Under the pieces are notes generated by a model. It saw only the letters and a list, made by a program, of their open reading frames with translations, was not told where the DNA came from and made no database searches. Below are positions 14,534 to 49,703 of a stretch of 64,000 nt of DNA, piece after piece; the first letter of the stretch is position 1, and the number at the start of each line of letters is the position of its first letter. The stretch spans positions 1 through 64,000 of the forward strand of contig JAABRL010000014.1 of the NCBI GenBank assembly GCA_011390935.1, in the 5' to 3' direction. The stretch is from Gemmatimonas sp. GTDB taxonomy: Bacteria; Gemmatimonadota; Gemmatimonadetes; Gemmatimonadales; Gemmatimonadaceae. The translations under genes were made by a program, and so were the position numbers.

Positions 14534-15541
14534 ATGTCTCTCCCTGAGCCGCGCCGCGCTGGCGCCCCGTTGCGAGCACTCGATGAGGTGGTCGAGCGCC
14601 TCGGTGCCCCCACCGCGCGTGTCGCGCCCAAGGCCACCTCGCTCTCGGCGCGGGCGGCCCAGCTGCTCGCCGACGGTCCCTGCGACCCGCACACACTCAT
14701 GCGGATCGTGTGCGGCGTAGACCGCCTGCAGGTGGACGCCGCGGCACGCATGGCCGACGTGTTGCTCGGCAGCCGCCCGGAGTTCGTCCAGCTCGATGAC
14801 GATCGTTGGGCGCTCGTGCACGACGGGCAGGTGGTGCAGCGCCCCACGACGCGTGCGCCGCGGGAGGTGGAGCCGGTGGCCGCGCGCGAGGTGCCGGCCG
14901 ATCCGCTGCGCCTCGATACCATGCGCTTCGCCGTCGTCGATGTCGAGACCACGGGCTCGCAGCCCGGACTGTGGGATCGCGTCACGGAGATCGCGATCGT
15001 GCCGGTGGACGGCGGACGCGTGGGCGATCCCTGGGCGCAGCTCGTGCAGCCGGGGCGCAGCATTCCGCCCATGATCACGGCGCTCACCGGCATCAGCGAT
15101 GCCATGGTTGCCGATGCACCGCCCTTTGGTGCGATTGCCGATGCGGTGACCGAGCGGCTGGAGGGGCGCGTGTTCACGGCGCACAATGCACGCTTTGATC
15201 ATCGCTTCGTGGAGTCGGAGCTGTCGCGCACGCACGGGCTGCGGCTCGACGGCACGGCCCTGTGCACCGTACGTCTCACGCGCCGACTCGTGCCCGCGCT
15301 CACCCGCCGCTCGCTCGATCGCGTCTGTGCGTACTTTGGCGTGCGTATCGATGGTCGGCATCGTGCCGGAGGCGACGCCCTCGCCACCGCGCAGGTGCTC
15401 GTACGTCTGCTCGGCATTGCCGCCGACCGCGGCATCGAGCGCTGGCCGGATCTCATGACCACACTGTCTGCGTCGGCCGGCCGCACCTCGGCTCGTCGGC
15501 GCGCACTGCCCACTTCCGCACACGAGGATCTCGACGCGTGA
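14534..15541 (+). CDS. DnaQ-like 3'-5' exonuclease (DEDD family)
   Basis: FAVVDVETTGSQPGLWDRVTEIAIV (ExoI), FTAHNARFDHRFVESE (ExoII), HRAGGDALATAQVLVRL (ExoIII). Confidence 0.9.
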   Translation: MSLPEPRRAGAPLRALDEVVERLGAPTARVAPKATSLSARAAQLLADGPCDPHTLMRIVCGVDRLQVDAAARMADVLLGSRPEFVQLDDDRWALVHDGQVVQRPTTRAPREVEPVAAREVPADPLRLDTMRFAVVDVETTGSQPGLWDRVTEIAIVPVDGGRVGDPWAQLVQPGRSIPPMITALTGISDAMVADAPPFGAIADAVTERLEGRVFTAHNARFDHRFVESELSRTHGLRLDGTALCTVRLTRRLVPALTRRSLDRVCAYFGVRIDGRHRAGGDALATAQVLVRLLGIAADRGIERWPDLMTTLSASAGRTSARRRALPTSAHEDLDA

Positions 15542-16440
15542 CCGCTCCGACTCCGCTCGTTCAATCCCGGCAGCTTGGCCGGTGGCGTCTGCACGCCATT
15601 CAGGCCGGTGGCCAGCAACTCGACGGTGGCGCCATGTTCGGCGTGGTGCCGAAGGTGCTCTGGGAACGCCGTCTGCCTGCCGATGCCCGCAATCGCATTC
15701 CGCTCGGCATGCGCTGCCTGCTCGTGGAGCACGATGATGGCCTGATCCTCATCGATACCGGCTCGGGCAACAAGGAAACCACCAAGTTTCACGACATTTA
15801 TGCCATCGAGAATGCCGGGGCGGATGGTCGCACGATGCTCGAGGACGGGCTGTCGGCGCTGGGGTTCCGGCCAGAGGACGTGTCACTCGTGATCAATACC
15901 CATCTGCACTTCGATCACGCTGGTGGCAATACGTGGCGGACGCCGGGGGGCGGCGTGGAAGCGGCGTTCCCGAACGCGCGGTACGTCGTCCAGCGCGGCG
16001 AGATGGAGTGGGCCACCCACACCAACGAGCGCACGGCGGCGAGCTATTTCGGCGCCAACTGGGACGCGATCGTGGCGGCGGGGCGCTTCGATCTGGTGGA
16101 TGGCGAGCCCGAGCTGCGCCCGGGGGTTCGTCTGCGCCGGACGCCGGGGCATACGCCGCATCACCAGAGTGTGGTGCTCACGAGCGGCGGGGAGACGGCG
16201 GTGTTTCTGGGCGACGTGACACCCACGGCCTGGCATCTGCCGCTGCCGTGGATCATGGGGTACGACGTGGAGCCGCTGGTGACGCTGGAGTCGAAGCGAT
16301 CGTTGCTGTCGGAGGCCGCGGCCGAGCAGTGGCTGCTGGTGTTCGAGCACGACGCCCACACCGCGTGGGGGCACATTGCGCACGACGGGAAGAGCTACCA
16401 GCTGACGTCGCCGGACGGCAAGTCGTCGTCAGGGGGTTGA
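15538..16440 (+). CDS. MBL-fold metallo-hydrolase
   Basis: VINTHLHFDHAGGNTW, RTPGHTPHHQSVVL, AVFLGDVTPTAWHLPLPW; GTG start overlaps the previous stop codon. Confidence 0.9.
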   Translation: MTAPTPLVQSRQLGRWRLHAIQAGGQQLDGGAMFGVVPKVLWERRLPADARNRIPLGMRCLLVEHDDGLILIDTGSGNKETTKFHDIYAIENAGADGRTMLEDGLSALGFRPEDVSLVINTHLHFDHAGGNTWRTPGGGVEAAFPNARYVVQRGEMEWATHTNERTAASYFGANWDAIVAAGRFDLVDGEPELRPGVRLRRTPGHTPHHQSVVLTSGGETAVFLGDVTPTAWHLPLPWIMGYDVEPLVTLESKRSLLSEAAAEQWLLVFEHDAHTAWGHIAHDGKSYQLTSPDGKSSSGG

Positions 16441-16464
16441 CCTCCGCGCTCGGTCGCCTAGGTT
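16437..16464 (+). promoter_or_regulatory. candidate sigma70 promoter for the infC leader
   Basis: TTGACC (16437-16442), 16-nt spacer, TAGGTT (16459-16464). Confidence 0.45.
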
Positions 16465-16468
16465 ACAC

Positions 16469-16667
16469 CTGTTGGTGAACAGACAACTCGTCAAGTAGGG
16501 TGGCTGACCGGCCGCCCTCACCCCTTGGCCTGGTGCTCGCTCCGCGAGCCGATGAGCTGACGGCGTCCTCAGTGCGCGCACGGCGTAACTCTCGGAGTGT
16601 TCGAGGGCGAGCCGTGTCTTGTGTCGCAACGCGGACTCCGTTTACGGGGTTCGCGTTTTTGATTTTT
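16469..16667 (+). promoter_or_regulatory. structured infC leader ending in a terminator-like hairpin (candidate attenuator)
   Basis: Successive hairpins 16469-16482, 16497-16518, 16535-16549, 16579-16616, then 11-bp stem 16630-16640/16645-16655 with TTTA loop followed by TTTTTGATTTTT. Confidence 0.65.
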
Positions 16668-16689
16668 CCTACTTGAAGGAGCTCGGCGT

Positions 16690-17208
16690 ATCCAGGATTC
16701 CACGAAGCGTCCGCCACGGGTGAACCGGCAGATCCGGATCAGCCCCGTCCGCGTGATCGCGGCCGACGGCAGTCAGTTGGGCATCATGGAAGTCGATGCG
16801 GCGCTCGCGAGCGCGGTCGAGCAGGGGCTTGACCTGGTCGAGGTTGCCCCGATGGCTCGCCCGCCCGTGGTTCGCATCATGGATTACGGCAAGTTCAAGT
16901 TTGAAACGGCCAAGCAGGCTCGGCTGGCAAAGAAGAAGCAGCACGTCATCCATCTGAAGGAGGTCAAGTACCGCCCCGGGATCGACGAGCATGACTTTGT
17001 CACCAAGACGCGCAACGCCAAGCGGTTCATCGAGGAAGGCAACAAGGTCAAGGTCACCCTGATGTTTCGTGGGCGACAGATTACCCACCCCGAGCTTGGA
17101 CGGGCGGTGGTGGACCGGGTGGCGGCTGAGCTGGCGGAGATCGCCAAGGTCGAGAGCCACCCGCTGATGGAAGGACGTTCCCTGACGATGATTCTCGCGC
17201 CGAAATAA
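16690..17208 (+). CDS. infC: translation initiation factor IF-3 (probable ATC start)
   Basis: ATC at 16690 in frame, AAGGAG at 16676-16681 with 8-nt spacing; (I/M)[38 protein letters not shown]...[18 protein letters not shown]. The ORF track's GTG at 16720 lacks an SD. Confidence 0.9.
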
Positions 17209-17276: not shown

Positions 17277-17474
17277 ATGCCCAAAATGAAATCTCACAGC
17301 GGCGCCAAGAAGCGCTTCACCGTGACGGGCACGGGGAAGATTCGGCGTCTGAAGGCGAACAAGAGCCACATCCTCACCAAGAAGGATTCGAAGCGTAAGC
17401 GCGGTCTGCGTCGGGCCACGTATGTGGAGACGGCCGGTGAGATCAAGCGAATCAAGCGTCTCATTCTTGCCTGA
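17277..17474 (+). CDS. rpmI: 50S ribosomal protein L35
   Basis: [45 protein letters not shown]. Confidence 0.97.
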
Positions 17475-17486
17475 GGATTACTCACT

Positions 17487-17855
17487 ATGCCCCGCGTCAA
17501 ATCCAACGTCGTTCGCCTCAAGCGCAAGAAGCAGATCCTCAAGGCCGCCCGTGGCGCCTTCGGTGGACGCAGCAAGCTCTGGAAGGCTGCCAAGGAAACC
17601 GTCGAGCGCGGCTGGCGCTACGCGTATCGCGATCGCAAGAATCGCAAGCGCGAGTTCCGCCGTCTCTGGATCGTGCGCATCAACGCGGCGGCCCATCTCA
17701 ACGGCTTGAACTACAGCCATTTCATGAACGGCTTGCAGAAGGCCGGTATCGAGATCGATCGCAAGAATCTGGCCGATCTGGCCGTGCGTGACCCGCAGGC
17801 GTTTACGCAGCTGGCCGATCGGGCCCGCGAAGCGCTGGCGCTGCAGGCCGCCTGA
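17487..17855 (+). CDS. rplT: 50S ribosomal protein L20
   Basis: [62 protein letters not shown]. Confidence 0.97.
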
Positions 17856-35576: not shown

Positions 35577-35649
35577 GCGGGAATAGCTCAGTTGGTAGAG
35601 CACAACCTTGCCAAGGTTGGGGTCGCGGGTTCGAGTCCCGTTTCCCGCT
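35577..35649 (+). tRNA. tRNA-Gly (GCC)
   Basis: GCGGGAATAGCTCAGTTGGTAGAGC...CCTTGCCAAGG...GGTTCGAGTCC...TTCCCGC; anticodon GCC. Confidence 0.95.
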
Positions 35650-35708
35650 CTTGTTGGCGTCGTTCGACTGTCGTCAATGCTGCATTTCATCGATCGGAGC
35701 AGGACGGG

Positions 35709-35732
35709 GGAGCGGGCAGGTGCCGCTCCTTT
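35709..35732 (+). terminator. terminator-like hairpin between the two tRNA genes
   Basis: GGAGCGG-gcaggtg-CCGCTCC-TTT (further T run after CGCG). Confidence 0.5.
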
Positions 35733-35745
35733 CGCGTTTTCGGTG

Positions 35746-35829
35746 GCCCGGATGGCGAAACCGGTAGACGCGGGGGCCTTAAAAGCCCCTTCCCGCAAGG
35801 GGGTGCGGGTTCGAGTCCCGCTCCGGGCA
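35746..35829 (+). tRNA. tRNA-Leu (UAA)
   Basis: GCCCGGATGGCGAAACCGGTAGACGC...CCTTAAAAG...long variable arm...GGTTCGAGTCCCGCTCCGGGCA; anticodon TAA. Confidence 0.95.
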
Positions 35830-48984: not shown

Positions 48985-49703
48985 CCGCCGTTCGCGTGGC
49001 ACTCATTGGCATGGGACGCATGGGACGCGCCATCGACGCGCTGGCGACCGAGCACGACTGCACGATCGTGGCGCGGCTCGATCGCGTTCGGGTCGCCCGC
49101 GAGGGGATCACGCGCGAAACGCTCGGTGGTGCCGACGTTGCGATCGAGTTCAGCGTGCCGGATGCGGCGCTCGGCAATGCGACGGCCTGCTTGCGTGCCG
49201 GTGTGCCGGTCGTGATCGGCACCACCGGTTGGCTCGATCAGCTGGATGTGCTGCACGAGACATTGCGCGAGACCAAAGGGCGTGCGCTCTGGGCGCCCAA
49301 CTTTTCGCCCGGGGTGCAACTCATGCTCGCACTGGTCGAGGTCGCGGGACGGCTGTTCCGCCACGCGCCGTCGTTTGATGCGCATCTCGTCGAGACGCAT
49401 CACACCGCCAAACTCGACGCACCGTCCGGAACAGCGATCGCTGTGCAGGCGCGTACGGAGCGAGCACTCGGTCGTGCCGTGCCGATCACGAGCATTCGCG
49501 CGGGCTCCGTGCCGGGCACCCACGAGCTGCTGCTCGACGCACCCTTCGAAAGTGTGGCGATCACCCACACGGCGCGTGATCGACGTGTCTTTGCCGATGG
49601 TGCGCTGGCCGCTGCGCGATGGCTCGGGGCGACCTCTCGCCCCGGGCTGCACAGTATGCGTGACGTGCTCGGTCTCGGTCTCACACAGGAAGGCTCCGAA
49701 TGA
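48981..49703 (+). CDS. dapB: 4-hydroxy-tetrahydrodipicolinate reductase
   Basis: VRVALIGMGRMGRAI, VVIGTTGW, ETHHTAKLDAPSGTA. Confidence 0.95.
   Translation: MTAVRVALIGMGRMGRAIDALATEHDCTIVARLDRVRVAREGITRETLGGADVAIEFSVPDAALGNATACLRAGVPVVIGTTGWLDQLDVLHETLRETKGRALWAPNFSPGVQLMLALVEVAGRLFRHAPSFDAHLVETHHTAKLDAPSGTAIAVQARTERALGRAVPITSIRAGSVPGTHELLLDAPFESVAITHTARDRRVFADGALAAARWLGATSRPGLHSMRDVLGLGLTQEGSE

Follow-up and report, generated by a model that had tools for sequence, protein, structure and literature searches.

What controls the infC-rpmI-rplT operon in this Gemmatimonas genome, and does the stretch ahead of infC take part in that control? The window analyzed here (the whole stretch of 64,000 nucleotides from contig JAABRL010000014.1) had been given an initial annotation in which the DNA before infC was read as a candidate cis-regulatory attenuator with a terminator and a possible antiterminator. 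Conservation, covariation, the terminator and the operon context all supported that reading. The answer that we propose, with a probability of roughly 0.85, is that the leader is an L20-type autoregulatory transcription attenuator that has diverged from the Rfam L20 leader, RF00558.

The infC locus and its promoter

The operon and the elements immediately around it are as follows.

15541-16440, MBL-fold hydrolase gene, upstream of infC; its stop codon is overlapped by the promoter
16437-16464, + strand, promoter TTGACC-N16-TAGGTT (TTGACC 16437-16442, TAGGTT 16459-16464)
16675-16681, + strand, ribosome-binding site GAAGGAG, read directly
16690-17208, + strand, infC (IF-3), an open reading frame with start codon AUC at 16690-16692
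17277-17474, + strand, rpmI (L35), an open reading frame named from its own sequence
17487-17855, + strand, rplT (L20, the presumed ligand), an open reading frame named from its own sequence

The promoter that had been placed over the upstream MBL stop codon was borne out by direct reading; the output of a generic promoter scan of the window did not include it. In most relatives, a TTGACN-N17-TANNNT promoter is found 6 to 9 nt 5' of the conserved ACAA box described below, with a mean best score of 7.7 of 12 versus 2.6 in shuffled sequence. The corresponding gap in the window is longer than in the relatives, at about 18 nt. Elsewhere in the window, two tRNA genes are found on the + strand at 35577-35829.

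A conserved leader RNA precedes infC

The regions upstream of infC were compared at about 160 Gemmatimonadaceae loci, of which 129 distinct ones were aligned. Alignment A1 consists of 76 diverse leader sequences, and covariance model R1 was built on Gemmatimonadaceae leaders. The elements of the leader RNA are the following.

16480-16570, + strand, the stretch that covariance model R1 matches, comprising the whole aptamer domain
16483-16486, + strand, ACAA box near the leader 5' end; 2 of its 4 columns (A and A) are conserved at 90% or more in alignment A1
16493-16495, + strand, AAG, which includes the AA dimer that an L20 site should have; unchanged in 76 of 76 aptamers
16497-16518, + strand, hairpin P1 (16497-16504 with 16511-16518), present in the minimum free energy structure
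16519-16524, + strand, CACCCC, the 5' base strand of P2, with CAC invariant in alignment A1
16520-16566, + strand, hairpin P2 (16520-16529 with 16556-16566; inner hairpin 16535-16540/16544-16549), from alignment and folding
about 16572-16627, + strand, variable hairpin P3, which contains CGGAGT, from folding

With small variations, the consensus of all 129 leaders is ACAA-n-AAGYRG-[P1]-CYCACCCUCYGGCC-[P2 inner hairpin]-GUGYGCUGCAGGAGUYC, followed by a variable hairpin and a terminator. The conserved strands of P2 are CACCC...GGC and GCUG..GG-n-GUCC, and AAG, CAC and one G are invariant across the 76 diverse sequences. Covariation among orthologous infC upstream regions, which had been put forward as a check on a functional RNA, was present. 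Compensatory changes were observed in 8 of 8 pairs of P1, and the whole-structure covariation score was 0.395. Shuffles gave 0.155 ± 0.008, and not one of the 500 scored as high. In slid controls, the score dropped to about 0.1, and RNAalifold recovered P1 and the base of P2 independently. A wider alignment of 87 leaders gave 0.454 versus 0.184, values from an alignment that was fitted to the model and is hence biased towards it.

The initial annotation had counted at least four hairpins. Four are indeed present, namely, P1, P2, the variable P3 and the terminator. A fold begun at the leader proper recovered the conserved arrangement of P1, P2, P3 and terminator, and a fold from 16466 that included the infC ribosome-binding region gave a long-range structure without P1.

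Terminator and antiterminator

Two further elements form the proposed switch.

16628-16667, + strand, intrinsic terminator with a 13-bp stem (16628-16640/16645-16657) and the T tract TTTTTGATTTTT, from a terminator scan and folding
16560-16568, + strand, antiterminator strand ACGGCGUCC, which is also the 3' strand of P2 and pairs with 16633-16641 with one C-U mismatch

The terminator had originally been described with an 11-bp stem (16630-16640/16645-16655), which held and could be extended to the 13 bp listed, and it was found close to infC as stated, the AUC at 16690 being 22 nt past the T tract. A terminator is present in 127 of the 129 distinct relatives; a few weak calls were left out of the pairing tests described below.

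The antiterminator first suggested, CGGAGT (16593-16598) with ACTCCG (16635-16640), is complementary as claimed, but it is neither conserved nor above chance. Partners of the CGGAGT type inside P3 reached 3.70 nt versus 3.95 nt in shuffled P3, with 6 nt attained in 2 of 123. The partner is absent in three congeners, and the fold that contains this pairing is unfavorable (-68.1 kcal/mol).

The terminator 5' arm does have a conserved partner, namely, ACGGCGTCC at 16560-16568. Across the relatives, the P2 3' strand has the consensus GGAGUCC, complementary to GGACUCC in the terminator 5' arm, and the window's own genome is one in which the pairing carries the C-U mismatch. Pairing of each aptamer with its own terminator scored 18.18 on average, versus 17.42 ± 0.15 when the partners were swapped between genomes (maximum, 17.84; 0 of 300 swaps reached the native value), in a test that treats leaders as independent and ignores their kinship. 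Letter-shuffled arms gave a pairing score of 11.3. The bulged base of P2 is A in 105 leaders, of which 101 have a U opposite in the terminator ACUCC, and it is C, U or deleted in 15 leaders, of which 11 lack the terminator U. This association gave a Fisher value of 1.4e-9, again with kinship ignored and with the terminator-U classes assigned by reading the sequences; the exceptions come from at least four genera. Within the terminator, the U is part of a G-U wobble pair in 83 of 98 cases. A C in its place would strengthen the terminator, so retention of the U is consistent with an additional role in antitermination. The antiterminator predicted from the alignments consists of the P2 3' strand and the terminator 5' arm. 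These two strands covary, a clear trace of the two roles that the P2 3' strand plays.

Fold energies for the window are consistent with such an arrangement. When the RNA ended before the terminator 3' arm, the antiterminator form was at -73.0 kcal/mol and P1 plus P2 at -65.2 kcal/mol, whereas for the complete leader, P1, P2, P3 and terminator together reached -84.3 kcal/mol versus -78.0 kcal/mol for the antiterminator form. These energies suggest a switch in which read-through is the default and termination follows when P2 is held.

One could also suppose that the hairpin and T tract do no more than end the transcript of the MBL-fold gene, with infC transcribed from a promoter of its own farther downstream. 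The MBL-fold gene is indeed syntenic upstream of infC, at 52 of 60 Gemmatimonadaceae loci. Against this, a conserved promoter lies between the MBL gene and the leader, the terminator is about 30 nt from the infC start and leaves little room for another promoter, and 5' of the terminator are an aptamer and an antiterminator that show covariation. We consider this explanation highly improbable.

A putative L20 site and the likely ligand

The hallmarks described for an L20 site are an AA dimer and two G-C pairs in a row (PMC7247131). In the leader, the AA dimer and the paired C-C/G-G fall on near-invariant positions, and the C-G pairs formed by C-R-CC with the P2-closing GG are present in 75 of 76 and 72 of 76 sequences of alignment A1. 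The choice of which leader pairs would represent the hallmark G-C pairs is our own assignment. Since 23S rRNA was not found in the window's own genome assembly, that of two relatives was used for comparison. The Gemmatimonadaceae rRNA has AAGU-[GGCUGCU...AGCAGCC]-CGCC where the leader has AAGY-[P1]-CACC. We take the rRNA stretch AAGU-helix-CGCC to be the H40/H41 region bound by L20.

The leader had been suggested to sense L20 or IF-3. L20 would be the most likely ligand, and termination would take place in the cell; sensing of IF-3 by the leader gained no support. Feedback by IF-3 via the infC start codon is known from E. coli, and infC begins with AUU, AUC or AUA at 125 of the 129 distinct Gemmatimonadaceae loci. 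IF-3 thus has a conserved means of feedback of its own, and it probably regulates infC separately through this start codon. The same attenuator architecture might nonetheless sense IF-3, L35 or another factor, as the operon begins with infC, L20 is a presumed ligand, and the likeness to RF00558 is structural and below threshold. However, the near-invariant positions are those from which the L20 site is built, both in rRNA and in the L20 leaders already known (PMC7247131), and a different ligand seems improbable to us.

Proposed mechanism

In B. subtilis, L20 bound at the junction of helix 1 and helix 2 stabilizes the terminator (PMC6097659; reviewed in PMC10931766), and a mechanism of this type would account for all of the features of the leader here. 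Those computed are conservation, covariation of P1 and P2, covariation of the antiterminator, the terminator, the operon context and an architecture shared with RF00558. Transcription would start just upstream of the ACAA box, and P1 and P2 would fold first. The junction between them is the putative L20 site. It would include the AA dimer that precedes P1 and, at the P2 base, the paired C-C from CACCC, and would imitate the AAGU-helix-C(A/G)CC part of 23S rRNA. When L20 is absorbed by new rRNA, ACGGCGUCC at 16560-16568 could pair with GGACUCCGU at 16633-16641 in the terminator 5' arm, and this antiterminator pairing would allow the polymerase to read through into infC-rpmI-rplT. Surplus free L20 would instead keep P2 closed, such that the terminator at 16628-16657 forms and the operon is switched off.

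Relation to known L20 leaders

An Rfam search of window positions 16300-16800, with permissive filters as well, returned no RF00558 and nothing real; a mir-1204 match there, like many microRNA matches in the Rfam search of relatives, was far below cutoff and was taken as chance. No Rfam family other than RF00558 gave a meaningful match to the leader either. Among the loci of 20 relatives, RF00558 scored 19.6 to 20 bits in 3, placed exactly on the leader, and a scan of the genomes of 41 relatives found the leader in 2, both weakly and among other weak matches. The curated RF00558 cutoff is 58.7 bits, and by Rfam's own cutoff rule the leader is not a member of that family. The divergence from the Rfam L20 leader that had been anticipated is thus evident, with no match in the window and 20 bits at best in relatives.

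The two RNAs nevertheless share their architecture. The RF00558 consensus from cmscan, AAGaAG[AAGC..GCUUC]UCgCCUuag...CAGGcu...terminator, has its elements in the same order as the Gemmatimonadaceae leader, and CACCCC of the window corresponds to CgCC in RF00558 and to CGCC in Gemmatimonadaceae 23S rRNA. Like the Firmicutes leader, known from B. subtilis, the leader here stands before infC-rpmI-rplT, has AAG, P1 and then a C-R-CC whose CC pairs with the GG closing P2, and ends in a terminator before infC that competes with an antiterminator. It differs in being far below the Rfam cutoff, GC rich and from another phylum, in its variable P3, and in a longer P2 (ACCCU.UGGC/GCUG..AGGnGU) whose 3' strand is the antiterminator strand.

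Intermediate lineages may connect the two groups. R1 matches Selenomonadales infC leaders at 11.5 to 22.4 bits, and in 10 of 10 Selenomonadales genomes the best RF00558 match (30 to 40 bits) overlaps the R1 match. Two further phyla were sampled, one around an Acidimicrobiaceae genome and one around a Firmicutes genome; model R2 matches infC leaders at six loci in the former and two in the latter, and RF00558 scores 23 to 51 bits on 4 of these 8. Six loci of the Acidimicrobiaceae-genome phylum (L290, L293, L301, L303, L306 and L308) have AAG-P1-CACC-P2, with a terminator visible in several; RF00558 scores 23 to 26 bits on two of them.

The initial annotation had allowed for independence from the Firmicutes leader, a proposal left unsupported by the common architecture and core and by the models of both groups meeting on the same RNAs in some lineages, although RF00558 itself reaches only 19.6 to 20 bits, in 3 of 20 loci, in Gemmatimonadota. 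An L20-sensing attenuator that evolved separately and converged on the L20 site would differ from our preferred reading in descent only, and our confidences in the two overlap. In favor of convergence, mimics of the L20 rRNA site arise repeatedly (PMC7247131) and RF00558 misses the Gemmatimonadota leaders. Yet AAG, P1, C-R-CC, the P2 base and the terminator occur in the same order and spacing, and the intermediates in Selenomonadales and at some loci of the Acidimicrobiaceae phylum are matched by the models of both groups. Convergence is unlikely in our view, though less so than a different ligand.

Two other L20-related systems are less similar. A candidate L20 leader of Deltaproteobacteria likewise has these two rRNA-like elements and L20 as the proposed ligand, but its scaffold was described as structurally different again, and the regulated gene given for it is another one (PMC7247131). 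The E. coli rpmI-rplT translational operator, with two L20 sites in a pseudoknot and a hairpin, also achieves L20 autoregulation by rRNA mimicry, but it acts on translation inside the operon, with no attenuation before infC (PMC10931766).

Distribution of the leader in Gemmatimonadota

In a search of the genome that contains the window, the R1 match at 16480-16570 (63.5 bits) was the best and only one, with an E value of 7.7e-13. A weak match in the scan of the window, at 49201-49264 (14.3 bits), was taken as chance. A sample of 298 genomes of the phylum included 163 with an R1 match at E ≤ 1, among them 98 of the 103 Gemmatimonadaceae sampled; the rest came from family f2 of the same order, from f3 (one match) and from families f4 to f9 of the same class. 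Four of the five negative Gemmatimonadaceae genomes (G007, G056, G083 and G094) have no infC in their assemblies, and in the fifth, G154, a targeted search found the leader at locus L186 with 51 bits. Of 30 matches checked outside the family, 29 were in genomes with infC, and all 29 lay immediately 5' of that gene and in its orientation. The targeted search of 87 infC loci gave 87 matches at E ≤ 1, one each, at the leader. Essentially all Gemmatimonadaceae genomes with infC carry the leader, which was present in every genus sampled from the family and extends to several further families of the class.

Earlier work placed the L20 leader in Firmicutes alone (PMC6097659) and attributed an exception in Thermotogales to horizontal transfer (PMC3766115); our nonexhaustive literature search found no paper tying it to Gemmatimonadota. 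Its occurrence throughout a class of Gemmatimonadota and before some further infC genes suggests that ribosomal-protein feedback through this RNA is more ancient, or more readily transferred, than had been assumed. We would give even odds that the L20 leader did not originate in Firmicutes but is an old regulator of Firmicutes, Gemmatimonadota and at least part of the phylum of the Acidimicrobiaceae loci (presumably Actinomycetota), missed so far because AT-rich Firmicutes shaped the Rfam model. The analysis gives Gemmatimonadota a specific regulatory RNA, and its alignment could serve to improve the family model.

Two minor observations came from the same genomes. G247, G248 and G258 each have a second infC-like gene, about 50% identical and on another contig, which is either a paralog or contamination. 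In G008, a second, weak R1 match (contig C164, 4161-4251; E value, 0.019) lies some 400 nt 5' of the infC leader and may be a decayed copy or due to chance.
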